The notes under the pieces were generated by a model. It saw only the letters and a list, made by a program, of their open reading frames with translations, was not told where the DNA came from and did no database searches. The position numbers and the translations under genes were made by a program. Positions 8,493-58,204 of a stretch of DNA of 64,000 bases are shown here, one piece after another (the first letter of the stretch is position 1; the number at the start of each line of letters is the position of its first letter). The stretch is from Diprion similis (taxonomy: Eukaryota; Arthropoda; Insecta; Hymenoptera; Diprionidae), in contig NC_060116.1 in assembly GCF_021155765.1 (NCBI RefSeq), positions 12,338,001-12,402,000 on the forward strand. The letters run 5' to 3'.

Positions 8493-11400
8493 ATTTGATA
8501 AACCCCGACGTGGTGATAAACGTTGGAGAAAAACTGCGTATCCGATGTCTACCGCAACCCGATTCGCAGACATCCTGGTACAAAAATGACACCCATTTCC
8601 AATCGTCGGCACCGACAATACGGGTGATGAGCGAGTGGATACGATTCAAGGCAGTCCAGGTAGCGGACACAGGCATCTACGGGTGCAAAGTCGCGACGAG
8701 AAACGTAATAGAGTGGAAAAACGTCTCGATAACGGTTGTCGAGCCGCCCGTAGAAGAGCAAAGAGACGAGCCGTTCCACCCCGAAAACGCGGCCCTCGAG
8801 TCGCGACGACCAGAGGAGGAAACGAACGAGCTTGAGACCGAGGCCAGAAAACGTAAGTAAAAAAATCGCGGAGTTCTTTGGGCTGAAATATTCTCGAATC
8901 GTGCGAGTGTCGTAATTTTCTCCGTTTCACTTTTCAGGCATGCCAGTGTCACTTTCGCTGCACATGGACGCCGACCCGGACAGCGACAAGGCGGAGGAAT
9001 CGGAGGTCGGGGTGCACAACACAACGGCCGAACTGAGTCCCCCGTATTTCCCGAAGATCGACGCGATGCACAAGGTGATCGCAAAGCCGGCGGGAAACAC
9101 GCTTAGACTGCGATGTCCAGGTAGCGGAAATCCCATGCCGAACATAACTTGGCTCAAGAATAACCAGGAGCCTACGAGGTCGCTTGGAATCGTTAAGATA
9201 CGGGGTTGGACCCTGAACATAGAAGACGTGGTCCCCGAGGACGGCGGAAACTACACTTGCATCCTGTGCAATTCCCTCGGTTGCACGAACTACACGTTTA
9301 AGGTCGACATTATAGGTGAGCATGACGGTGACAGGAGTAATAAGTATCGGTAACAGACTTATTGTTAGTAATAGTAGTAAGTGACAATAACGATTCATTG
9401 ACGATGTCAGCATCGCTGTTTCTTGTTCCCCCCCTCGCAATTCCTCGACGTATGTGTATCTACGTCACAACGCGACCTCGTGCCACCGTGTAAACACCAA
9501 CGGTGAATACAGCCAAACCTGAGTAACGAATAAAGATGTGTAACGAAATAATTCAGAGAGATTCCCGCACAAGCCGTACATCAACCCAGGATACCCAAAG
9601 AACGTCACCGCACAGTTGGGATCCTTGGTCCAATTCGAATGTTGTATCGTGTCGGACCTGGAGCCTGACATACAGTGGGTAAAAGTCCGTGGGAGTCCCG
9701 AAGAGGACAGAGAGCCCAATGGAACTGTGATTGAGGTACATCGCAATATCACACGTGGACCTACCTTCTCAATTTACCGCAAAAAAACAAAAGCAAAAAA
9801 AAAAAAAAAAACCGCAAACCTCTTATCTCTCTTGTTCCCTAACCTATCGCCAATTCATACGGACGGACAAGGTTTCATGGGCTGTACCTAATCATGGTGG
9901 CTGGATCCTATTGTACATGTAACACATATATATTGAGCAGTAAAGAAATGATCATCGACTGCTCTGGTGGCTGGAGGTTAAGGAAAAATATACTCAACAT
10001 ATTCATGTTTATCCTGTACTCGTTGTATTTGGCCAATGCCAAGGTTTTGGTTCTGTGACTTTAACTCAAAAACCGCTTCATATTTCAGGGTCAATTGCAT
10101 ATTTTCATTATTTTATTTTTCAATTTTTTTCAGCCTGTGAATAAGTTTCATTCAGAATTCACGGTGTTGGTTGTTGTAATATACATTTGGTGAATGGATG
10201 TTAAAAGAGAATATACACATACATGTAAATTCTTTATCATATAATTCATATCATGCTGTGACAATAAAGACAGTAAAAAATTATAATTACGGAAAATTTC
10301 GGCCTGATATGATTTATAGGTGAATAATGTATAGTTCTATCCTTGTAATCACTTGACTCTATAACTGAAAGAACGCGAACCATAACTTACCAGTAAGATT
10401 CCAATTGGTTACCATCAATTATAAGTAGAGCTTACATATTTCGCTCAGTGTTTAATTTTTACCCCTTTCCTATAAAGGAGATAATCTTATCGTTAGCTAA
10501 CTGAATTGGAATCCTTAGAGGTGAAAATATGTTCTGCTCGCGTTGATACTGCCTAGTGTTATACTACATCTTTTAATCCTCATTTACACGGGGTAACAAA
10601 ACATGTATCTCTAAATATGGTGGTTGGGCTTATTCTCATACGCAGAACGCTTAATTCATCGACCGATCCTGACGGTGGCGCCTCAGAATAGGACAGTACT
10701 AGTAGGAACCAACACGACATTGAACTGCCGAGTCCTCTCCGACGCTCATTCCCACGTGCAATGGTTCTACGGGTTTCATAACACCCTCGACACCACCAAC
10801 AAAAGTCTCGAGGTTAATAACGATTATAAATGATGTCTTGATGTCGCGCGGACGAAGTGATCGTACGCGTTGTAATTGTTCGCTTGCCCACAGCTTGTCC
10901 AATGCATGCGGAATTTAAGTTATATACAGACTAACGTATGAGAATTTCTATCCTGCTGTATGTGCTCTGCGCTCACGATCAGACGCTTTTAACCGATCTT
11001 TCTGGCTTCCTTATTTTCCTCTCTCTCTCTCTCTCTCTCTCGCTTTTGAATTCTAAAGAAAAATGTACGTCAATCTCTTTGTTATCGCTTTACGTGTGGT
11101 TCTGTCGATCGAAACTTGGAGACGACGGATCGATCGATCTCTAATCGGTACGGTTTCTGATATCAGGTTGGCGACACGAGTAGGCCGGACGTTTTGGAAC
11201 TGGCGAACGTAACCAAGGAACACGAAGGCTGGTACACTTGCATAGCAGCGAACAACCTGGGCGCCACATTCAGCAGCGCTTATCTCCGAGTGGTAGAATG
11301 TGAGTAGAGAGTAAAAAGACCAAGTTCAGCCGGCAATATTTCCCCGAATAATTATCGCTGAAATAATCCATCTTCCTGCCCAGCTCTGGAAGAGGAGAAC

Positions 11401-14400
11401 CAGGTTCCGCTAACCGCTCGGCCTCAATCGGTCCTGGTGAACGCGTTGGCTGGTATACTCTGCACGTCTTTTCTCTTCGGGATAATAATCGTCGTCAGTA
11501 TATTCCGACGACTGAAACGAGAGAAGATGAAGAAAATACTGGCGATAGAAACTGCTCGAGCTGCGGTCGTGACCCAGTGGACGAAGAAGGTGATCGTGGA
11601 GAAACAGCACCTGGCCAACGCTCAGAACGTTCAGGAGACGCTCCTAATGCCGATCGTAAAGATCGAGAAGCAAAAATCGACCGCCACGGCCGAAGACAGC
11701 TCGGGAGGAAGTATTTCCGAGTACGAATTGCCGATGGACAATGCCTGGGAACTTTCTCGGGATCATTTGGCACTCGGAAACACCCTCGGCGAAGGGGCAT
11801 TCGGAAAAGTTGTTCGCGCCCAGTCGAACTCCCTTAAGCCTGGAATACCGAGCGTCGTTGCTGTGAAAATGCTCAAGGGTACACGCCCAGAATCTTAATA
11901 ATGCGCATTGATCAATTGTACTAGTATAAAAAGAAGAAAACAACCCTCTCGCGTTCTTTTTTTCTCTCTTTTTTTTTTTTTTTTTTTTTCAAATAAGACT
12001 CTACTTATAAAGTGTTTAATTCGTTGGAATGATTCGATTTTCTTTCACGTGCGAGGAAAATTATTATTTCCAGCAATTAAATGATAATCCTAATTTATAC
12101 TTGCCTCAAATGAGAAAATTTATTTGAACCTATATCTCGATTTATTTATTACTATTATTATTATTGTTAATGTATAAAAAAAAAAAAGAGAATACATATA
12201 TACGTATATAGGATTTAGGATTGTACTAGGATAAATAAATATGTATTTATGCAAATCTATGCAAGTACGTTGAATCAAATGAGCATGGTTATTGCTCGAA
12301 TCTGGTTAGTATGCTGGAATTTTTACCGGTCTAAGTGAATAATAATTGTTTAACGTTCGTGCGATTTGATAGTAAATTCCGTTGAATTCATACGTTAAAA
12401 TAAGAATTTAATTTTTCTATTATTATTGAACTTGATATGAAAATACAAAACTTCAGTGATATAGGCAAATTTACTTGGAAACATTTCTGAAATTCTTCAA
12501 CGTTTCACAATAAATTCGGTAAAAAAGAAAAAAACAATATCAATTCAATACTTATTAAACGTCAACACCGGCAGCACTGTTGTTATTGGAATATATATAC
12601 GATTTTTGAAGAAGATAAAAAAAAAGAAGAAAAATCAACAACCTATAGTAATACTTGTGTCCACTTCCTGCGGCAAACGAAAAAAAAAAAAGAAAGAAAG
12701 AAAGAAAAAAACAATCTCTTATCAAACTCTCCGATGAAAATTGCGCAATTAGCGCATGCGCATTGATCGATCGCAGTACACTCATCAATTTTTTTTATTC
12801 CCCTTTGTATTCGAATCATAACCAATCCAATTCGACCTAATTATGTCCGACGTTATCACAGCTGTTCATTTGATTCGATGTGCATGAAATTTGATGACTC
12901 ATGACTATAAATATATATTAAATGTTTATATCAAGTATGAAACGAAAGTAACAAATCGAAAAATCGACATTATTTGTGGCAAGTACAGTTAAGAATGGTT
13001 TGAAAATAGAAAACAATTAAAAACGAACGAAACGTATCCGCGCAAAGACAGGAATGAATAACTAACGACATTTTGTTTCTACAGAGGGTCACACGGACGC
13101 GGAGATGATGGACCTGGTCTCGGAGATGGAAATGATGAAAGTGATCGGAAAGCACGTCAACATAATAAACCTGCTGGGCGCTTGCACTCAAGGGGGGCCG
13201 CTTTACGTGGTCGTCGAATTCGCGCCTCACGGAAACCTTCGGGACTTCCTGCGGGAACACAGACCCTCTTCCGGTTACGAGCCGACGATAGGCCAGGAAA
13301 TGAAGCAGCGAAAAACGCTGACGCAGAAGGACCTCGTCTCCTTCGCCTACCAGGTTGCCAGGGGCATGGAATACCTGGCGAGCAGACGCTGCATCCACAG
13401 AGATTTGGCGGCCAGGAACGTCCTCGTGAGCGACGAGTACGTCCTCAAGATAGCCGACTTTGGACTCGCCCGCGACATCCACTGCCACGATTACTACAGG
13501 AAAACGACTGACGGAAGGCTTCCGGTTAAGTGGATGGCACCCGAGGCCCTCTTTCACAGGCTTTATACCACTCAGTCCGACGTGTAAGTTCGCGTATATT
13601 GTCGAATTATGTACTTAGGAAGAGGGCTGAAAAAATGTTCGAATTTCGAGAATTTATTTAATTCGGCTGATGGTTGTTTTACACTAAAGAAAAAAAGTCA
13701 TTGCCATTGATAAACAACGTCACGATTATCGTCAATATCAATGCTTTTCCGATAATTTATTCTAATAAAAGAAAAATAAATAAAACGAATCACTTGCGAA
13801 ACGAATAATTGATTATAAAGATCAGATAAATTCTTGGAATTCGGCTAATCTTTCGACATTATTCTATACCTACTCGTCTATGCTTTCTTAAGATGATTTT
13901 AATCGTCAACAGGTGTTCTAATCTTCTAATCGAAAAAAAAATTTCTTCCGTTATTAGATGGTCGTACGGAATTCTGTTGTGGGAAATAATGACTCTGGGC
14001 GGTACGCCCTACCCGTCCGTTCCATCGGTTGAGAAATTGTTTCAGCTATTGAGATCCGGACACAGGATGGAAAAGCCGCCGTGTTGTTCTATCGAGATGT
14101 GAGTTAGAAAAAAATTGGTCCATTTTATTTGTTATATTATACAAATGCTCTGAATTTCACACTGACTTAAATTTCCGTGTTCCTCTTACCCTCAATCTGA
14201 TCTTTCTTTGATTCTACAGATACATGCTCATGAGGGATTGTTGGAGTTACCAACCAAACGAACGACCGATGTTCGGTGAACTGGTCGAGGACCTTGACAG
14301 GATATTGACGATAACCGCTAACGAGGTGAGTGAATCGCATCGATAAGATATCATTTTATTCGTCGCAAAGTTGGGGGAGGATTGAGAACCATCGAGTTTC

Positions 14401-14525
14401 CTTAAATTTTATAGGAGTACTTGGACCTTGGTCTACCACAGCTAGACACACCGCCATCGAGTCAGGAGTCGAGTGAAGCCGACGACGACGACGACGACGA
14501 CGAGAAGTTTCCCTACTTGTTGTGA
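8493..14525 (+). CDS. FGFR: Fibroblast growth factor receptor (heartless/breathless type), N-terminus not found
   Basis: Single-pass receptor tyrosine kinase that binds FGF with heparan sulfate and signals through Ras/MAPK; in insects this family acts in mesoderm and tracheal cell migration. Exons: 8493-8852, 8938-9315, then either 9557-9735 or 10646-10812, then 11167-11299, 11384-11878, 13085-13583, 13958-14098, 14220-14325 and 14415-14525. Domains in order: Ig D1 (Cys...Trp...DTGIYGC), an acidic Glu-rich linker (acid box), Ig D2 ([11 protein letters not shown] to DGGNYTC), Ig D3, a transmembrane helix at about 11431-11508, and the kinase domain. Kinase motifs: [12 protein letters not shown] with the ATP lysine at 11866-11868, HRD at 13396-13404, DFG at 13456-13464, activation-loop [15 protein letters not shown], and the APE motif. 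The C-tail has seven consecutive Asp codons. About 800 residues are visible; the signal-peptide exon lies upstream of 8493 and must end in phase 1. Single-gene versus htl/btl assignment cannot be settled from here. Confidence 0.96.
9557..9735 (+). other. FGFR: FGFR alternative exon IIIa-1 (first half of Ig domain III)
   Basis: Acceptor ATTCAG|AG, donor GAG|GTACAT; enters in phase 1 and leaves in phase 0. It encodes [12 protein letters not shown], then the D3 cysteine (FECC) and IQWVK. This corresponds to vertebrate exon IIIa, including the ERxPHRP linker that follows D2. It is paralogous to the exon at 10646-10812 and has identical phases. Confidence 0.9.
10646..10812 (+). other. FGFR: FGFR alternative exon IIIa-2 (duplicate of 9557-9735)
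   Basis: Acceptor ATACGCAG|AA, donor CTCGAG|GTTAAT; same phases (1 in, 0 out) as the exon at 9557-9735. It encodes [32 protein letters not shown] and a shorter variable end. The matching landmarks (ER..H.P, N.T, C.V.SD, QW) show an exon duplication followed by divergence. Using both exons, or neither, breaks the frame (see findings). Confidence 0.88.
11020..11042. repeat. CT microsatellite in FGFR intron
   Basis: About 11 CT units between alternative exon IIIa-2 and the exon at 11167. It could act as a pyrimidine-rich splicing element, but it lies 125 bases from the acceptor. Confidence 0.8.
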
Positions 14526-17500
14526 ATAACCCGGCGAAAAGAGAAACGAAGGTGACAACAATTGCCGTTCGAGTGATGAATTTTCGATGGATAATCAAGA
14601 GGTCTAAAACTTGGTTGGGTAGAAATGATGAGAATGATGGAAAAGGAATCGTATAATCGAGATGAAATGAGAAAATAAATTTGCGAATAATAAACTAACA
14701 AACTGGCAAAGTATAATATACGTAATAGTGAAAAATCAGGTGAAATATGTAGTGTTTGTTACACTAAAGGACGAAAGTGAAAGAGAGGAAGAAAGGCGGT
14801 TAAAGTTTTTTGTGAGTGTAATGAGGTAAATTACGTCGGGATATTTGTACAACCGAACGTCGACTGATACATAGAGAACACGCCAAATGATACAAATCAG
14901 TATTGACAAAAACATTAATAGATAAATAAATAAATGAATGGATGATTAAACAAAACATAAAAATTAATACATGACGCATATTTTTTTGTAGACTTTTAAG
15001 GAACTATTGAAAAACGAGAGAAAAAATATAAAAATAAACCAACGCATGTACACGTGGTGCCCGATGATTCGAGGTGCTAATCGTGCAAGGTATAAATCAC
15101 ACGTTTTATACTTTTTACGTATTTATGTAATAATATAATCATGTGCCATGACTGAGTGCCTTTCAATTGTTACCAATCTAGTAAAATTGAAATTACATTA
15201 ATCGATCGAGCGATTGATTTTTAATTTCATCTAAAAGTGTACTAAAGTGTAAGAATGAATAATAATAATAATAATAAGCAAGTATTTTTATAATTGATTT
15301 ATATACGTGTATGTATATCTATAATAAACGTGCTCGTTCAACTCGTTGACAATTTATTATTATTGTTACAATTATTATTATCACACTTTCGAAAAGGCTC
15401 AAAATCTTGACAAACTTTTATCATTATTTCATGTATTATAGAAAGAAAACAACAACAATAAAAAAAAAAAAAAAAATTGAGAAACGAATTGCAATGGGTA
15501 CGATATTGTGTTTGTTACTAGTCAATTTATAAATTTCAACATTTTTGTACGATAGACTTTTCTTTTTTCTAAGATTTATAATATGTAATATTTCTACGTT
15601 ATTAGATATTTTTTTTTTATGTTAGATTTAATGCAAACTTGTAAAAAATACTGAAGAAAAAGGAAGAGATAATAATCACAAGAAGAATACAATTCGTTCA
15701 CATGTACGAACGTTAGGTACGAACCTTGCTGAAAATTTGTATCAGCTCGAACATAAGAGAGAACGTCACGTTTCAGTTTTTTGTATTAATACAGATACAT
15801 GTTTCCGTTAATATCGTGTGAAACAGTGGATCCAATCATCTCCAATATCTCTCTTGAAGGTATAATACGAATACCTCAAAGTATTTATAAAGCATTCAAC
15901 ATACGTGTATAAATAACAGTTTATAAAATTGTACTAGATAATAAATAGCATTAGATAATTTATTATTTGTAAATTCATCGCAAGTATTTCTTTTTTTCCG
16001 TCTTCTATTATGCGAAATCAGTTATTGAACATCGTAAATGAAACACAAGAGGTACACGTCATTGAATATAAAATGCCGTTACGCGAATGAATAGAGGAAA
16101 GAATTACCCTATCTTGTAACTGTGTATTCATTATTGTTAACAATGGAAAGAAATGAGACATTAAAAAAAAATAAAAATGAAAAAAAAAACAAAGAAAAAC
16201 CTGTAAAAAGTACATTTAAGTACGTTCACATCTAGGTTTATGTCGTTACAAAGTAAAAATAGTTTAGATTAAAAAAAAAAAACAAAAAAACTAAAAATAA
16301 CGTGTAAATAGGAGGCGAATTGTTTACTATTTCTTTAAAATGAAGAATGAAAAAAATGGAAAAAAATTCGTTGATCAGTGCCTAAATAACCATAGCGAAT
16401 GCCGCATTTACCTGCAAGCATGTATCGTATATTTGTATGTTCGGTGTAACTGAAGTGTAACGAGTTTCAACTCTACAATAAATGAAAATACGTGTACCCA
16501 ACAGTAATACTTATACGACAATTTCTCATTTCCCACCTTCCTGTGAGTTGAAATTTAGCACGGGATCAATCGATTATTGACTGGCAAGAAGACGATTCGA
16601 GTAAGTATTTCGACCGAGAATTTAACACAGTACAAAGTGAAATAATTTTTTTTTTCATCTCTGAGACTTTTTCTCTCTCTCTATCTTTCTCTCTTCCAAG
16701 GAAATATTTAGGAACGGCTTTCAAGAAAACGAAAACAATTTATAGAAATGATTCTGAAACATATCGTAACGAACTATAAGCGTTACAGAATAAATAGAAC
16801 AAGTTCGTGAGCTTATGAAGCGAACAAATAGAAAACAAAATTAAAAGACGAGGAAAAATACTTTAATGCTTGAATGTTTACAGATTAAAGTTTGAAACAG
16901 GACTGTTTTTATCATAATATTGGTTTGACGCAGCAACCTTATTCGTTATATGACATATCAACAAAGTTTTTATACAACTTTTATCTATGATGACTACTAA
17001 ATCAGAAAAGGGGATGAAACGAGCGACTTCACGCATTGTAAAAATATTAACGTATCAAACTAGAATGACCGGTATAATTTTAGGAAAGAAATTTGAAATT
17101 TGAAATTTGAAAATGGAACGTATCGCGCGCCGCGAAGATTAAACCGATTAAACGGATGACAGACGAAACAGATGCGATTAGATTAGTTCGAGAAAAGAGC
17201 GCTAAGAGGGCGTTTAAGTCAATACGTTTTGTTGTCATCAGCCACATTTACAATAAGTTGTTTTTACCAAATTTTTATTACAAATGTTATTTTATTCTAT
17301 ATATAAGGTGAAAAATAATACCATGAAAATGTATCAATCGTAATAAAAAATGTTCCCGCGTTGTTTGTTGGTGATGCATACGAGTGAGAGACGTGAAAGT
17401 TTATAGGCCAAAAGTAAGGTTAGAAATATGGTAACCCACTTTTTACAACGAAACAGAGTAATTGTCAAAAGTATAATTTTAACAGGATTATAAATTTAGG

Positions 17501-23656: not shown

Positions 23657-26600
23657 ATCGTTCTAATACACCGAGATTTGTTATTACGTCAATTTCCCTT
23701 ATCCGTCGGCAGTTTGACCGACGACGATGAAAATGCGAAGTCGAGTTAGGTACGCAAGTATATTTTATTTCTCTGAAACGTTGATATTCCCGTCGCGCGA
23801 TTGCCGATTACTTAACCGTAACTGACGTTACGCGATCCTGTAACTTTTTACGTGTAGCTAGTAGAGCAACGCCGTAAAGAACGGCATGCAGGGCACGCAT
23901 GTTAAAATACCTACTCGAGGCCGCGATCGTAACGTTTGAGTCTGAGTAAATCAAGAACGGGTCACCTTAGCGCGGAATTCCGCTACGCTTGTGTTTGCTT
24001 GCACTCGTCTCGTTTTAGTCTTTTTTCCTTCTATTTTCCTCCTCCCCCCCCTCGAGGCGCAGTAGGGCTGATGCGCGGTTGTTTTAGTAGAAAATATGGC
24101 GGGTAGATTCGGATAACCACGTGCGGAATTCGACCGTCGTCGACGATTATCGTTACAATTAGGATTTATCAACGCGATGTCTAGTTACGTAGGCTCGACG
24201 AAAACATCGCCGAGCGATAAGGAGCGGCTCGTCGTTTTCCGTGATCGATATAAATCGCGAATTGAAAGAGTCAAAATGAAAGAAAAATTGTTTTGACAGG
24301 CGCCGAGGAGAGTCGGGATTATTTTATTTATTCACTTGTTATTCATTTTTTATTTATTTTTACGGCCTGGCGCGTGCACAGTTCAGGAAGCCGTCGAAAG
24401 AGAAAGTCAGGTGTATTATGTAAAGCCGTGTTATACGTATTAAGCCAGTATCTACCAGCGGCGGGGAAGCAAGGACTTCTGGCACGTTCACTCAACGTCG
24501 ACTTACTTCGTTTTATCCAGTTCGGTTTTACTTTCAGACGCGATTAGACGGGTTTTCACTTTCAGAGTACTCGTCTTCCCGCCTGTAAACAACTACAGAA
24601 GGTTCATCATACACCAATCGGTACAGAATCAATATCAAGATTTATTGTACACTTTTTCTATCGGCCAGGGTGCCCAGCGAAGGACCGTCGTGTGCTACAA
24701 GACTGATGTCGTAAGGTACAGTCTCAGTCTGTCGTTTCGTTGAAACTCTATAATATATGCTTCGAAGCTAAGTTACAAGCTGAAAAACGATCCCAGATTG
24801 TGAATTCTGTGATTAATAAATTGAATATCGTCTAAAGGGACCCCAAGTTGAATGGTGCCTCACCCGAAACGTGCGGTTTTAAAGTATCGGACTTCGCTTG
24901 TGCCATGGGAGTAGAGGGGCATAGATCGGCGTTAGAATCGCCAGAGAATACGCGTCAAAGACAAGGTGTGTGCTAAATTATTGTGATTATTGATTGTTCC
25001 AACTGTTCTTCGTTCCGACCTGCAAACACGTTACTGTTTTGTGTCGTTTTAGTGAAATCAGTGCCATCCATTGGAATTTACCGACCCCCGCCGGCGAGAA
25101 AAGCGAGATGTGATGTCCAGACTGATTCTCAGCAGGATCAACCAGCTTCCGAATCTTCCCAAGCATCCAAGTGAGTCAGTTTTAACAAAGTTCAGCTGCG
25201 TGCTTACTTATATGCTGTTTAAAGTTTTCCAAAAGCTCGTGTGTATGAATTCGCCACTTAAGTTGGGAATCGTGTAACTCGTTACCCATCTTGTTTGAAT
25301 GACTTTCTTGACATTAACAATATTTACAGGGCCAATCGACAGAAGAGACCAGACCGTGCAGTTTATGTTCCTAAACATCGACGTAGTAACGAAGCCGAGG
25401 CAAGCTCCTTGTCTCGAGAAACTTGCAGAGCTCCACGGTCAACTAGAGAACGGCGTAGCACAACGTCTTCACCTGCCCATACAAGCCTCAGATCTTATAA
25501 CGATAATCGTGGAATTGTGTCAGATTCCTTTAATAACGGGACACAAGAGATAGAACGTGAAGTCGAAGTCTCAGATGTTGCACCTGTTTTAGAAACAGAT
25601 AGAAATCTGTCCGGCGCGATTGAGATTCCAATTGGTCAGGAATCCACACAGACTCAAAATATAATTATAGATGATGTATTGAATACGAGTAGCATTAGTA
25701 GCTTAGTTAAAAATAACGACAAATTTGTCAGCGAAAGATTAACGAACTCTGAAGCTGATGTTTTTCTACCAAGTGACTCTACGGTAATAACTGAACGAAA
25801 TGTCGACAGCTACGTAGAACCGACATTGAAGAAAGGAAATTGTACTCCAATATTAAATAGGCTGGACGACGAATCAAGAGATGCCTGTTTAAGGGGAGAA
25901 CCTGAAATAGTACAAACAGACACAGAACCTAATAAAGAGCTGCGGCAGTGCGGGACTGGACTGATATTAGATAGTTGCGAAGCTGCGTCGAGTGAATTAG
26001 AGATAAACGAGGATCGACAATCGCCAATGAGTGTAGAAAAGGGAGAGGGTGGCAGAAATATCATCGAGTCTGTTGAACGGGATGAAATATATCCGCAAAT
26101 CGTTAAGAACGAGGATAGTTCAGATTTAATCATGTCGGAAGATCGTAACAGAAAGAAGGAGGAAACCAAAGAGGAACTTCTCAATTGCGACGAAGTTGTC
26201 AATCACAAAAATAGAAGGATAGTTAGGCAGAATATAGTATCAGATGTATTATTAATCTCTGATGAGAAACCCCGGCAAGATATTATTATAAACGAACCAC
26301 CAGCAATTCCGGTTTCCCCATCACTGCCGACAAAGGAGAAAAAAGTAAAAAAAATCGAAAGATCCAAGAGCAAACCAGCTCCACCACCTCTACCATCCTC
26401 TAAAGTTAATCGGGACGACTGCGATTGGGATAGCCTTTTTGACGATAATGGAGATTGCTTGGATCCTACATTGATTGAAGAAGTAAGCTTTTTAACTATT
26501 ATTGCAAAATGCGTTTCTTTATTTCACCTTTTTATCTACCAGATATTGTTTGACCTACATTTTGCAATATTGAAAAAAATGTACTCTTCTGACTCACAAT

Positions 26601-28699
26601 CAATAAGAACTGCATTTAACTTTCTAGCCTTCGAGCAGTGACGGAACGATATTTATTTACTACTAGAATTATCGTTATTTTTACAGTTAACTACAACTGT
26701 AGGCGAAGTTACAATAGAGAAACCCAAGAGTGACTACAGGGCGTATTCAAAAGCGCCGGTGGAAGTATCCAATGATGAGTTTGCGCATGTTGTTGAGATA
26801 TATAATTTCCCATCAGACTTTAAAACTAGCGACCTTGCAGCTGTCTTTAGTCCTTTCAAAAATGGAGGATTTGAACTAAAATGGGTTGATGATACGCATT
26901 GTCTGGGTGTATTCAGCAGCCCTCTTATAGGTGAGTAAACGTGAGATATTAATTGTTTATGTATACACATAGTACTAAATGTGCTAAGTATGCAAATCGG
27001 TCGTGTTACTTGATCCATGCTGTAACGTCGTTTAAACCTGTCTTGCAACTGGTACGTAACGGCTGCTTGACTTTATGCAATTGAGGATAATACGAGAAAA
27101 GTGCGCTCAATCAGGTCTTGGCAATAAAACAAGAATTAAAATTTATGAAAAAAGAACGAACGTTGCTCTCATTCCACCTGAACCGGCAAAGATGTAATGG
27201 AGATACTACAGAGTTTGAATTATGAGAAAAGGAAATGCTCCTTCAGGCTTGACTGAATCTCGATTAGATAAGAGCACATCAACTTTCTCCAATGCAGGAA
27301 ATAGATGCTTAGAAAATTGATGATCAAGTCTTTGAATAGTGGACAGATGGATGAACTTTGTGGTAGATTATCAATGACCATCCCTATATATTAGCAATTG
27401 GCTCACAATCAATAAAATCACTTATAGGTACACACATATGATTGTGTAGTAACAGAGTGAGCCGATATTTTGACCCAAAGTGAAAGTAGGAACTGTAATG
27501 TTACAACACCATGGAATTCAGCCAAGAATTTAACTCACTAGTTATGTAATTTGTTACAATTGAAGAATTACACTCTCTATTCCCCCTGAGTTGCTTGAGG
27601 AAATCCCTTTTATTATCACCTTTCGACTGTTGATTTCAATATTCATCGAAATGGATACAAATAAATTTCCCAAGTACTAAAGAAATCTTGCGTTAAAACA
27701 AAAGAAAAATCAGTAAAAAAGAATATAAAAAATCATAGAGATTGCCTACTAACAAATATGGTACAATATTGTATATTGGTAACAATAAACGATCATATTT
27801 CCTACCAATTTTGCAGTTATTTTATAATTGTATATTTGTAACAAAAAATTACCATCGCTGAATTTGATAGCTGCAAAATTAAAAAAACTAAATTACCGAA
27901 TCAAGTTCCTCAATAGAATAAAACGCGTTTCAATTTCAATTCATCAAATCCTTAACTCGAGATCTCTAAGAATTATATCACGTGAACCAGCAACCTGTTA
28001 ATTATCGTGAAAGGGGAATTACTGCTGGTAATGTCACCAATTACATAGTGCAAGGAGGAAAAGCTTAATAATTTGTAGAAACAAAAAATTATAACAAGCC
28101 ATTACACATCACCTCGTAATCATTTCAGCCCATTCCACATAATTACGAACAATTGAATCGTGTGGATATTTTTCACTAGAAATAAGCATTGATCGCTGGA
28201 AAATGTTTTTCTAGTAAATCACATAAAAAACATGTGAAATTTCAGTCAATTAACATGATTTGAATGGCATTTTAACTAGCTGCTGAGGTCTTGGCATCGG
28301 ATCATTCGTTTGTAAAGACTCGGCCCCTCAGCGAAGCGACAGCATTGAGCAAAACGAAAGCAAGAAGAAGTGCCGAATTCTTACAGCCTTATCGAGCAAG
28401 GCCAGAAACTTGCGCAGCATTAGCAAGACGATTGGTAACTGGAGCACTAGGCGTGAGACTGGCGACAGCTAGACAAGAGCGTGAGAGAGAGAAGGTTGTG
28501 CTACGTGAAGCAAAAGGTATAGAGTTTATTAAATCTCGCTTTTTTACGTAAGGCATGTAACTATATGCTCGTATTGTCTTATGGCACCTCAATCGCATAT
28601 GGATTGTTTCATCAAAGAACATTGACACTTTCAGAGAGACGAAGGCTAGCTAACAAACAACGAGCAGATGCTTGGCAAGGAGTCGTAGCAGAAAAGTAG
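23456..28699 (+). CDS. R3hcc1l: R3H and coiled-coil domain protein, R3HCC1/R3HCC1L type
   Basis: Probable RNA-associated protein of unknown exact role (Drosophila counterpart probably CG2162). Exons 23456-23562, 24566-24710, 24848-24965, 25053-25170, 25330-26482, 26687-26930, 28280-28516 and 28635-28699; 728 aa. Exons 1-2 encode an R3H-like domain ([12 protein letters not shown], then [16 protein letters not shown], then [16 protein letters not shown]). Exon 5 starts with the family motif [14 protein letters not shown], followed by a long acidic disordered region ending in [15 protein letters not shown]. Exons 6-7 encode an RRM-like fold ([11 protein letters not shown], then [12 protein letters not shown]) and the block [13 protein letters not shown]. 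The C-terminus is a charged coiled coil. The start is the first in-frame ATG after a stop at 23435; a second ATG at 23483 is an alternative. The exon-3 acceptor (24846-24847) has a weak pyrimidine tract and is the least certain junction. Confidence 0.93.
23621..23658. repeat. AAAT tetranucleotide repeat
   Basis: About nine AAAT units in intron 1 of the R3HCC1-like gene. Confidence 0.85.
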
Positions 28700-31566: not shown

Positions 31567-34454
31567 TTACCACTTGCTACCTTTCTTCTTTTTCTTCTGC
31601 TGCACTTTACGCTGTTGTTGTCTTGGACCGGCAGGTTCAACTGCAGGACTTTGGCGAGGATTTGGAGAGGGCTTTGCATTCGCTGGCATCTTAGTTATGT
31701 CACTGTAATAATTTAAAGTTTCATCAACGAGTCCGGAACAGATGCGAAAGAAGTTATTAAATTAATTAAATCATAAATAAAGTTTATCAAATGTTATTGG
31801 ACTTACTAAAGGTCACTGGCACCAGCTGCAGCTCCCTGGGTTCCTTTCATAGCAGCGTCTCTGTTTCTTCTGTCCCTCTTCTTTCTAAATCCACTACGTT
31901 CGTGTCTCGGTAGCCACCTTTCAGGATCTGGTGTTGAACTGAGGTCACAATTCTTGGGCAATTTTCCTTTACGCTTACGTTGCTTTCGTTTTTTCTGGGC
32001 TAAGTCGGTTCCAGGTGTCCTGGAATGACGAATAATGCTGGTACACTTGTTCTCTGCATAATGAAAATCCAATATAACAGCCTTACGTACCCAGGTGACT
32101 GCTCCACTTTACGCTTCACTACTTTAGTACCAATAACCCAGTTACTGGACTCAAGAGCATCGACATCAGTTGTTTCTGCAAGATGGTGAAGAGGCGGTAA
32201 TCGTTTTGACAAATTCTGCGCTCTGGTAGGATCAAATTGCGCGTAAGCTATCACCAGCTGTGCAAGAGTTCTGGTATCAGTAGGAGAAGCCTGGAGTAAT
32301 TCCTCCAGACTTGCAGCTGCTGCGCTAACTTCTCCTCCTCGCAAATGAAAGTCTGCTGCCTGACGCCACAAGGTACCCAGGTTAGCAGTGCTCTCCTGAA
32401 TTTCGAAAAGCAGTTTACATATTTCTAACGCAATCAGGAAAACTCAGAATCAAGGAACTACTCCAGAAATTGATTTACCTTATTTTTCTTATACCAGTTC
32501 ACCGCTTCCTTGAGGACAGCGGATGCTTTTTCACGAGTGTTATCTGCCAGGTGAAGCATTACCAGTGCGCTAACTATTCCAGGCATTGATCTGTCCTTCT
32601 CGTTCAAGTTTTCCAAAATTCTTATTGCCTCTTTTCGTTCATCGTGACTAAGGAGTAGCTGAACAGCGGCAAGTTTCATTGATAAATGCTTATCGTTCAC
32701 TGCATGTTCGTCCAGTAATTTGACTGCATTTTTGACTTTGCCTTCCTTGCTAAGTTGAATAGCTCTGATTAGCGATGCGTCTGCGCTAAGATCGGGATGC
32801 TGCTGCGCCAATTTTGTGCATAGCTGCTGGCACTGTTCTCCCTAAAAAAAAGTCGTGTCCTTATCTTCTTTTCTAAATGGACCGTGTCTCGCGATTAGTA
32901 ATCAAAAAATTGAAAGATCCGAGCCCATAATCTTACAAGTAAAAATGATGATTAACAACAGAATTTAAAATTAACAGGAGAGAACATCGTTAATGTGTCT
33001 TGATCAATTAATTCCCTATCAGTTAATCACGTACTTGATTAGTATACATTGCAAGAAGGCACTGATTGTAGGCAATGCTCTTCCGCTGTCTGGACGTCAA
33101 TTTGTGCTCCAAGCCTTCGTGTGTTGCGTTTCGCATCCTCTTCTTGCTGTCGAACACGTTTTGATCTTTATTCAAAGTGACAACATTGTTACTTGCAACA
33201 GCGACTAGAGCGACGTCATCTGGCTTGGCTTTTAGCGCCGCTAAATACAGCTCTTGGGCTTCTTTTTCGCGCCCCTGTAGGTGAAGACAATAGCCAAGTT
33301 GAACCTTGATTATACCAATTTCATCTTCAATATCCTCCTCGGTTGCTCCATCTTCTTCCAGTGCTTCCCTGCACATCTTCTCAGCGGTTCTCAATTTCTT
33401 TTCAGCCTCAACTAGCACCGCTCTATTGGTGCCGTTAGTTCCTTGAGCCACCAAACGGTGAGCCGCATTGTAAGTCAACTCATATGTACTTTCTCTCAGC
33501 GAAGGAACTTCTATATCCTTGAGGAAAACGATGCAAATGATCAACAAGAAAATCTCCCTACTTATTGTCTTGACTGTGATACCACTTAAGCTTTAAGATT
33601 ATCTACAAATTCCAAAGGGTTTTTAATTGATTCTGACCAAGGTTTACAATATGAAATATAAAATCTTACCGATCCTTCGGCAGCTAAGTTAGAAAGAACA
33701 GCGGCAAGGTTTGTTTCTCTCTCATCTTCATAGTCGTCGTTTGAATTTTTGATGATATCTCGATAAACGGCAAAGCATTCCTCATACTTTTCAAGGCGGT
33801 ACAAAATCTGAGCTTTGAGTTCTTTGATTTTCAGGGATGGATTCTGAACACCTTCTACTACTTTCAACGCTTCAGGTACTTGGTTCAAGCGGTACAAGCA
33901 ATACGCTTTTTCAAATTCCAAATTCCTGCGAATGTTATTGATACGTAAAGTTAAGAGAGAGAGAGAGAAAGAGAGAAAGAAATACTAAATAATTAAGCCA
34001 AATTTTTTCATCCATAAATCCTGAGCCCAACTGCACGGTTAGTCTATTAACATCTGGGAAGATACTCACGCTGACAGTTTTGGGTTTTTCACAATAAACT
34101 GCAAAGCGTCATTGAACTTTGACAGTTGAATGCAACAGATGATTTTGCAATGGAAAGCTTTTTCCTCGTCCGCGGAAATGCCGAGAACTGTAAATTAAAA
34201 TACAATTCACAAACGGCAACGGGGGGGGAGGGGGGGCAGAGTGTCCAATGATGTGAACGTTTCTAGGTTAAGCCCATGTCGGATTGACGAAGCCTTGACA
34301 ACCGCAAAGTTAGCAAAAAAATTTCACAATATAATCATCGGTCGACAGTCTTACTTCTATTCGCTGTCTTCAGCGCCCGTTCGTACTCCCCATTCTGTCC
34401 TAACTTATTTAATTCTGCGTACAAAGCAGGCAGATTCGACTCTTTCGAAGCCAT
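31567..34454 (-). CDS. Srp72: Signal recognition particle subunit SRP72
   Basis: Cytosolic SRP subunit. It pairs with SRP68, binds 7SL RNA and supports elongation arrest and targeting of secretory ribosomes to the ER. Exons in transcription order: 34454-34355, 34187-34070, 33925-33670, 33517-33035, 32841-32479, 32395-32091, 32019-31807 and 31702-31567; 657 aa, matching the usual ~650-670. The N-terminus MASKESNLPALYAELNKLG opens a TPR array that fills exons 1-5 (YNAAHRLVAQG, LGYCLHLQGREKEAQELYL). Exon 6 has the HTLAQL-like block TRTLAQLVIAYAQFDP. Exon 7 carries the conserved 7SL-binding region: a Lys-rich KGKLPKN followed by TPDPERWLPRHERSGFRKK, then KGTQGAAAGAS. The C-terminus ends in a KKKKKGSKW tail typical of the family. 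All junctions are GT-AG and in phase. Confidence 0.98.
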
Positions 34455-57214: not shown

Positions 57215-58204
57215 ATGATGAAGTACTTACTCTCGACTTGTGCCTTGGCCTGTCTTCTGCTGCAGGTAAATAATAATCCGTATTAAACTTTTCTGTATTT
57301 TTGAATTGTCTTTAAATAAAAAATTTCATCCGTGACAGGCGAACGGCGAGCTGTTACCCGATCACCAAGCTGCAAACAGAGCACATTGCAAGGCAGAGAC
57401 TGGTCTGAAACAAGGTAATAGAATGGAGAACGTCTTACGCAAATCTAAGCCCAATTTAAAAAAATAATAATAACAATAACAATATCTGGTGACCAGGCAG
57501 TCATTAAAATGAAACCTTCCTGTGATTATCGTTGTTCGAATTAGTAGCAGTAATAAGCTAACGTACGACGACTCTGACTCACGATTTACAAGTGATAAAA
57601 CATAGTGAACTGGTTCACTTCGGTCGATCCACGGCTCGCTTATCTAACCAATTATCTCCGTTTTCTATTTCATTGCCAACTCTCCACAATTCGTCATCCA
57701 GCCTCTTCCGATGCCGCTTATCTCGCCCAACCAAGTGCGAAGTGCTACGTGAAATGCGTATTCGAGAGGAATGGATTGGTAATTTTCATAATACTTTTGC
57801 CTTATTGTCTCCGCTTACTTGAAGGCAACAATTTTCCAACTATTCGCTCATTCATTAGGAAAATTGTTCCAATGCTAATCCTTTTTTTTCCCGCAAGTTT
57901 GCCGCGAATGAAGGTAACTTCGTTGACCGGGCCTTAACTTTGGTCGACCCGAGCATTCGCACGCTAGCCAGACCGGTGGCTCAATCCTGCTTCAACAAGT
58001 TCGTAAAAGTTTCCGACAGATGCGAAAAGTCATACGGAATCGTAAAATGCATGTACGACCTGGTATCGCCGGTGAGTTTAGCTGATCATTATTGGCTCTA
58101 TAAGGCAACTTGAAAAAAAAAGATCGATGTCGACTGGTTCATGGTTGTTTTTTTTTCTACAGATTTTCAAAGTGCTGGGTTTGTTCGAACCGCCTGAGAT
58201 ATAA
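57215..58204 (+). CDS. OBP-5: odorant-binding protein, paralogue of OBP-4
   Basis: Secreted PBP/GOBP carrier. Exons 57215-57265, 57339-57414, 57702-57778, 57898-58071 and 58163-58204; 139 aa. Signal peptide MMKYLLSTCALACLLLQ plus ANG. Cysteines: AHC (C1), AKCYVKC (C2-X3-C3), QSC (C4), DRC (C5), VKC (C6), with the same shortened C1-C2 spacing as OBP-4. The tail IFKVLGLFEPPEI matches the OBP-4 tail (LGIFEPPQL). The shared block VDPSIRTLARPVA against MDPSIREQARPLA, and exons 2-5 of identical length, show an old tandem duplication with strong protein divergence. The exon-4 acceptor (GCAAG|TTT) follows a long pyrimidine run. Poly(A) signal at 58378-58383. Confidence 0.95.

Follow-up and report, generated by a model that had tools for sequence, protein, structure and literature searches.

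The window analyzed here, a 64,000-nucleotide stretch of the Diprion similis genome, carries the body of an FGF receptor gene at positions 8493 to 14526. In order, the encoded protein contains a first Ig domain (D1), an acid box, a second and a third Ig domain (D2 and D3), a transmembrane segment, and a kinase, and it ends in ...DEKFPYLL followed by a stop codon. Three Ig domains with an acid box, one transmembrane segment, and a tyrosine kinase are the hallmarks of an FGF receptor, and all are found in this gene. Our reading of the receptor runs from the D1 exon onward, with the signal-peptide exon lying outside the located exons. The start of the D1 exon at 8493 is set by its AG; the joined-frame reading began one base later, which leaves the frame unaffected. 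The remaining exons, including two alternative exons (A and B) and the common exon that follows them (C), are as follows:

8938..9315, plus strand: common upstream exon encoding the acid box and Ig domain II (AG/GT borders, open frame, Pfam Ig matches)
9557..9735, plus strand: alternative exon A of 179 nt, IIIa type, encoding the first half of Ig domain III (open frame, AG/GT borders, paralogy with B, match of A+C to FGFR3 structures)
10646..10812, plus strand: alternative exon B of 167 nt, IIIa type, encoding the first half of Ig domain III (open frame, AG/GT borders, paralogy with A, match of B+C to FGFR structures)
11167..11299, plus strand: common exon C, IIIb/IIIc type, present once and encoding the second half of Ig domain III (joined open frame, copy search)
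11384..11878, plus strand: common exon, transmembrane segment, juxtamembrane region, and start of the kinase (open frame, AG/GT borders; transmembrane segment by eye)
13085..14526, plus strand: common exons 13085-13583, 13958-14098, 14220-14325, and 14415-14526, remainder of the tyrosine kinase and C terminus (joined open frame)

The domains were recognized by different kinds of evidence. D1 and D2 gave Pfam Ig matches, D3 was identified through matches to solved FGFR structures, and the acidic stretch and the hydrophobic segment were recognized by eye in the translation. Exon 13085-13583 has a Pfam tyrosine kinase match with an E value of 2e-56, and the piece encoded by 11384..11878 gave no Pfam match. 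The exons for D2, A, B, and C are all preceded by AG and followed by GT, and a 910-nt intron separates A from B.

The first half of D3 is encoded twice. A first-pass annotation of this DNA had proposed that A and B are paralogous, and the alignments bear this out. Comparing the 60 residues of A, including the split codon, with the 56 of B, 14 of 52 aligned residues are identical in both. Their global alignment score is 48.5, whereas shuffles average -14.3 (standard deviation of 7.5), and none of 5,000 shuffles scored as high. The local score between A and B (66) also exceeds the similarity of either exon to the other Ig domains (A with D1, 26, and with D2, 39; B with D1, 35, and with D2, 24). 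When compared with solved structures, A joined to C matches FGFR3 best (E value of 3.8e-22, 81.9 bits). B joined to C matches FGFR4 (E value of 3.3e-16, 62.3 bits) but ranks this receptor behind four non-FGFR multidomain Ig chains, namely, those of Fc receptor-like 5, titin, contactin-1, and Robo2. Judged by such sequence matches, A is closer than B to the vertebrate receptors.

The duplication appears to stop at two copies. A six-frame profile search of the window built on A and B recovered A and B alone above the inclusion threshold, with no third IIIa-type exon; in tblastn searches with A and B, the next best place outside the two exons was 57736-57798 (E value of 0.036). No second copy of exon C was found in the window, where the sole other match below an E value of 0.1 was the corresponding half of D2 (E value of 0.001). 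A protein scan for relatives among viral contigs and prokaryotic genome contigs returned none.

The lower score of B (62.3 bits against 81.9 bits for A in the best FGFR match) could be read as a sign of a decaying or unused copy, such that the gene would in practice always use A. Pairing of the 5' splice site with U1 is also weaker in B (-4.2) than in A (-5.7). However, B retains an open frame, the splice phases, the AG and GT borders, and the Ig cysteine and tryptophan, and its third-position GC content of 0.64 is coding-like, resembling that of A (0.63), D2 (0.71), and C (0.64). The pyrimidine content of the 3' splice site is in fact better in B (0.62) than in A (0.38), and the same kind of pair has been reported to be used in insects (PMC5703972). 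We therefore regard decay of B as very unlikely and infer that both exons are used in Diprion similis.

Joining the exons confirmed the coordinates and phases that the first-pass annotation had assigned to A and B. Both lengths leave a remainder of 2 on division by 3, with phase 1 at entry and phase 0 at exit, and the consequences are those that had been claimed. Counted from the D1 exon, the open frame runs for 799 residues before the stop codon when A alone is spliced in, and for 795 when B alone is. Joining A to B yields ...GTVIE N A and then a stop at codon 308, which is the third codon of B, whereas skipping both exons yields ...DII G W R H E and a stop at codon 251. A full receptor thus arises only when one of the two exons is used. 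Products with both or neither exon would presumably be nonfunctional and are probably cleared by nonsense-mediated decay. The further claim that the reading frame enforces exclusivity holds in part: wrong splicing is penalized by the frame, but the choice of exon is not made by the frame itself. Because the reading frame can punish errors but cannot choose an exon, a regulator is still needed. Exclusion by steric hindrance or by U2/U12 incompatibility can be rejected by inference, because the intron between A and B measures 910 nt and the exons for D2, A, B, and C all have AG and GT at their borders.

The anatomy, paralogy, and frame logic of the pair show the arrangement that characterizes the IIIa event of insects, that is, tandem paralogous first-half exons, a single second-half exon, and a full receptor only with one of the two. 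We are highly confident that this FGF receptor locus holds a mutually exclusive exon pair of the insect type. Its two members, A and B, would stem from tandem duplication of one exon that encoded the first half of Ig domain III, and either could be spliced between the D2 exon and exon C. Two receptors with a common kinase would result, distinguished by their D2-D3 linker and by the first half of D3.

In the structure alignment, the FGFR3 segment ERSPHRP...VYSDAQPHIQW lines up with a segment of A that starts with ERFPHKP; B, aligned to A, has ERLIHRP there. By our placement of the FGFR2 numbering, A has Phe-Pro and B has Leu-Ile where FGFR2 has the linker Ser-Pro. The Ser-Asp of the FGFR2 loop, under the numbering that we assume, is kept in both exons, and two residues further on there is a Glu in A and a His in B. 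These differences agree with the proposal of the first-pass annotation that the exon swap changes the D2-D3 linker and the front face of D3, subject to the FGFR2 numbering assumed here. Exon choice thus alters positions near the ligand. A-type and B-type receptors may consequently differ in ligand preference, and one might speculate that A serves Branchless-type signals and B serves FGF8-type signals. In FGFR2, the substitutions S252W and P253R in the D2-D3 linker lead to Apert syndrome, and Ser282 and Asp283 in the B'-C loop of D3 bind FGF10 (PMC6379346).

The likeliest chooser between A and B is a splicing regulator that binds the A-B intron. TGGTGG occurs on the plus strand of the window 7 times and on the minus strand 11 times, and 3 of the 7 plus-strand copies lie in the A-B intron, where 0.10 would be expected:

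9895..9900, plus strand: TGGTGG, candidate Esrp/Fusilli site, 160 nt after A (motif from PMC4566030)
9965..9970, plus strand: TGGTGG, candidate Esrp/Fusilli site, 230 nt after A (motif count)
10618..10623, plus strand: TGGTGG, candidate Esrp/Fusilli site, with its end 23 nt upstream of B (motif count)

TGGTGG is absent from both alternative exons, as well as from the 250 nt that precede A and the 250 nt that follow B. UGGUGG is the top-ranked SELEX motif of Esrp1 and, in the mouse, is enriched upstream of Esrp-silenced exons and downstream of Esrp-enhanced exons (PMC4566030). The Esrp motif from CLIP is UGGUGGUGG, and a crystal structure shows recognition of GGU (PMC10853802). Fusilli, the fly orthologue of Esrp, has reportedly acted as a splicing regulator in mammalian cells (PMC5478600). 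Two TGGTGG copies follow A and one precedes B, each no more than 250 nt away; this placement in Diprion similis fits the Esrp map by presence, with moderate significance. Based on these sites, Fusilli would be the best candidate regulator. Where expressed, it would promote A and silence B.

The statistical weight of the cluster depends on how it is counted. A scan for RNA pairing had revealed TGGTGGCTGG twice in the A-B intron, and TGGTGGTTGG before B was added by eye; TGGTGG was noticed by eye after that scan and counted only then, and the statistics are partly post hoc and come from one species. The longer pattern TGGTGGYTGG, written after the copies had been seen, has three copies in the 64 kb, all in the A-B intron. 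The Poisson probability of three TGGTGG copies is 0.00015, or approximately 0.006 after correction for 42 motif-by-intron tests; by shuffling of the intron, 27 of 20,000 sequences contain three copies, or approximately 0.06 after the same correction. The density of GGT in the intron is 17.6 per kb, compared with 9.8 per kb for the window.

On balance, we think it probable that the three copies are fortuitous or belong to a different protein that binds G-rich or GU-rich RNA. Among 287 random stretches, 144 contain at least one equally extreme six-mer, shuffled introns do reach three copies at the rate given above, and the motif had been noticed before it was counted. Against chance, TGGTGG is the most overrepresented of the 731 distinct six-mers of the intron, three copies of it occur in none of the 287 random stretches, and the positions of the sites agree with the published Esrp map (PMC4566030). 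Selection of the IIIa exon by Fusilli through UGGUGG in the A-B intron, with enhancement of A and silencing of B, is thus a tentative proposal that we consider rather doubtful. If it were true, Fusilli-expressing tissue would use A and other tissue B, and loss of fusilli would shift usage from A to B.

It is also conceivable, and in our judgment quite improbable, that the exon pair is real but that competing RNA pairing of the docking/selector kind, and not Esrp, selects between its two members. Such control is known in some other insect exon clusters. The best duplex between intron 1 and intron 2 (-27.7, against a shuffle mean of -24.5) and the ability of the intron 1 stretch 9465-9500 to pair with all three GGTGGYTGG copies (-20.3, -25.1, and -18.2 kcal/mol) would be compatible with it. 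However, shuffled sequences were as low in 1 of 25, 8 of 25, and 11 of 25 cases for the three intron pairs, so that the search for competing base-paired intron elements suggested by the first-pass annotation gave duplexes not clearly above chance. The slightly longer segment 9465-9515 of intron 1 can likewise base-pair with the three GGTGGYTGG copies of the A-B intron, again not clearly above chance. No known structured RNA was matched at Rfam gathering scores anywhere in the window.

Thirteen other splicing-factor patterns, written as consensus strings, were counted in the three introns. The MBNL pattern YGCY gave a P value of 0.017 in the intron before C, and the QKI string gave a P value of 0.054; apart from CUCUCU, the other values were 0.15 or more. 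The window holds 36 copies of TGCATG (25.9 expected), of which one falls in these introns, at 10903. The 9 overlapping CUCUCU (PTB-type) copies of the intron preceding C were rejected as a plain CT microsatellite; this repeat, at 11019-11040, is a PTB-type tract in appearance and a simple repeat in fact.

Two further regions of the window were noted for their open frames. On the minus strand, the two open frames of 32000-33547 gave weak matches to tetratricopeptide repeats, none of which reached the Pfam curated cutoffs, and they may resemble SRP72. On the plus strand, a 448-codon open reading frame at 25295-26641 lacks any Pfam match at an E value of 0.001.

Whether an exon pair of this kind had been described in insects was left as a question by the first-pass annotation, and the answer is yes. 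In their survey of the Ig III region, Burguera et al. (2017) report insects with a mutually exclusive IIIa exon and a constant IIIb/IIIc exon (PMC5703972, legend of Fig. 7), which supports the assignment of the duplicated exon here as IIIa and of the second-half exon as constant. In the non-chordates that they studied, the single IIIb/IIIc exon was constitutive in every observed transcript (PMC5703972). The insects showing the event in their figure appear to be the honey bee and Tribolium, and for the red flour beetle an earlier report of a splicing event at this place is that of Sharma et al. (2015) on Tribolium, as cited in PMC5703972. The exon pair of Diprion similis is thus of a kind already known in insects, and the lead on its regulator may be new. 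Burguera et al. map GU-rich Esrp SELEX motifs in other species, and their main text contains neither "fusilli" nor "UGG" or "TGG" (PMC5703972). In 15 of the 18 papers matched by a literature search, with subscription papers mostly outside it, neither the titles nor the openings of the abstracts link Fusilli to an insect FGFR.

The Diprion similis pair shares with the published insect event the gene, the duplicated half of Ig III, the constant IIIb/IIIc exon, and the probable use of one exon out of two. We know of no difference from that event, with the orthology of A and B to the published exons presumed from position. Dscam1-type docking/selector clusters likewise consist of paralogous exons in tandem, of which a single one is used each time, but the FGFR pair has two copies only, and pairing between its introns was not above chance in our scan.

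In chordates, the Esrp-controlled IIIb and IIIc exons are also alternative halves of Ig III used one at a time (PMC5703972 and PMC4566030), and the candidate Esrp sites in Diprion similis lie between the two alternative exons, as in the chordate system. The chordate duplication, however, affects the second half and leaves the first half constant, whereas the Diprion similis gene has the reverse; the duplications are separate, and the insect and chordate events are treated as independent (PMC5703972). If Fusilli does act on A and B, insects and chordates would use the same regulator on separately duplicated exons of one FGFR domain, and Esrp-FGFR control would either have arisen more than once or predate the exons on which it acts. 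The clean frame logic together with the candidate sites makes the question of a single or repeated origin of this control experimentally testable. Vertebrates switch the choice of FGF ligand by splicing the second half of Ig III, whereas insects with this form of the gene appear to switch through the first half, which carries the Apert linker positions and the ligand-touching loop.
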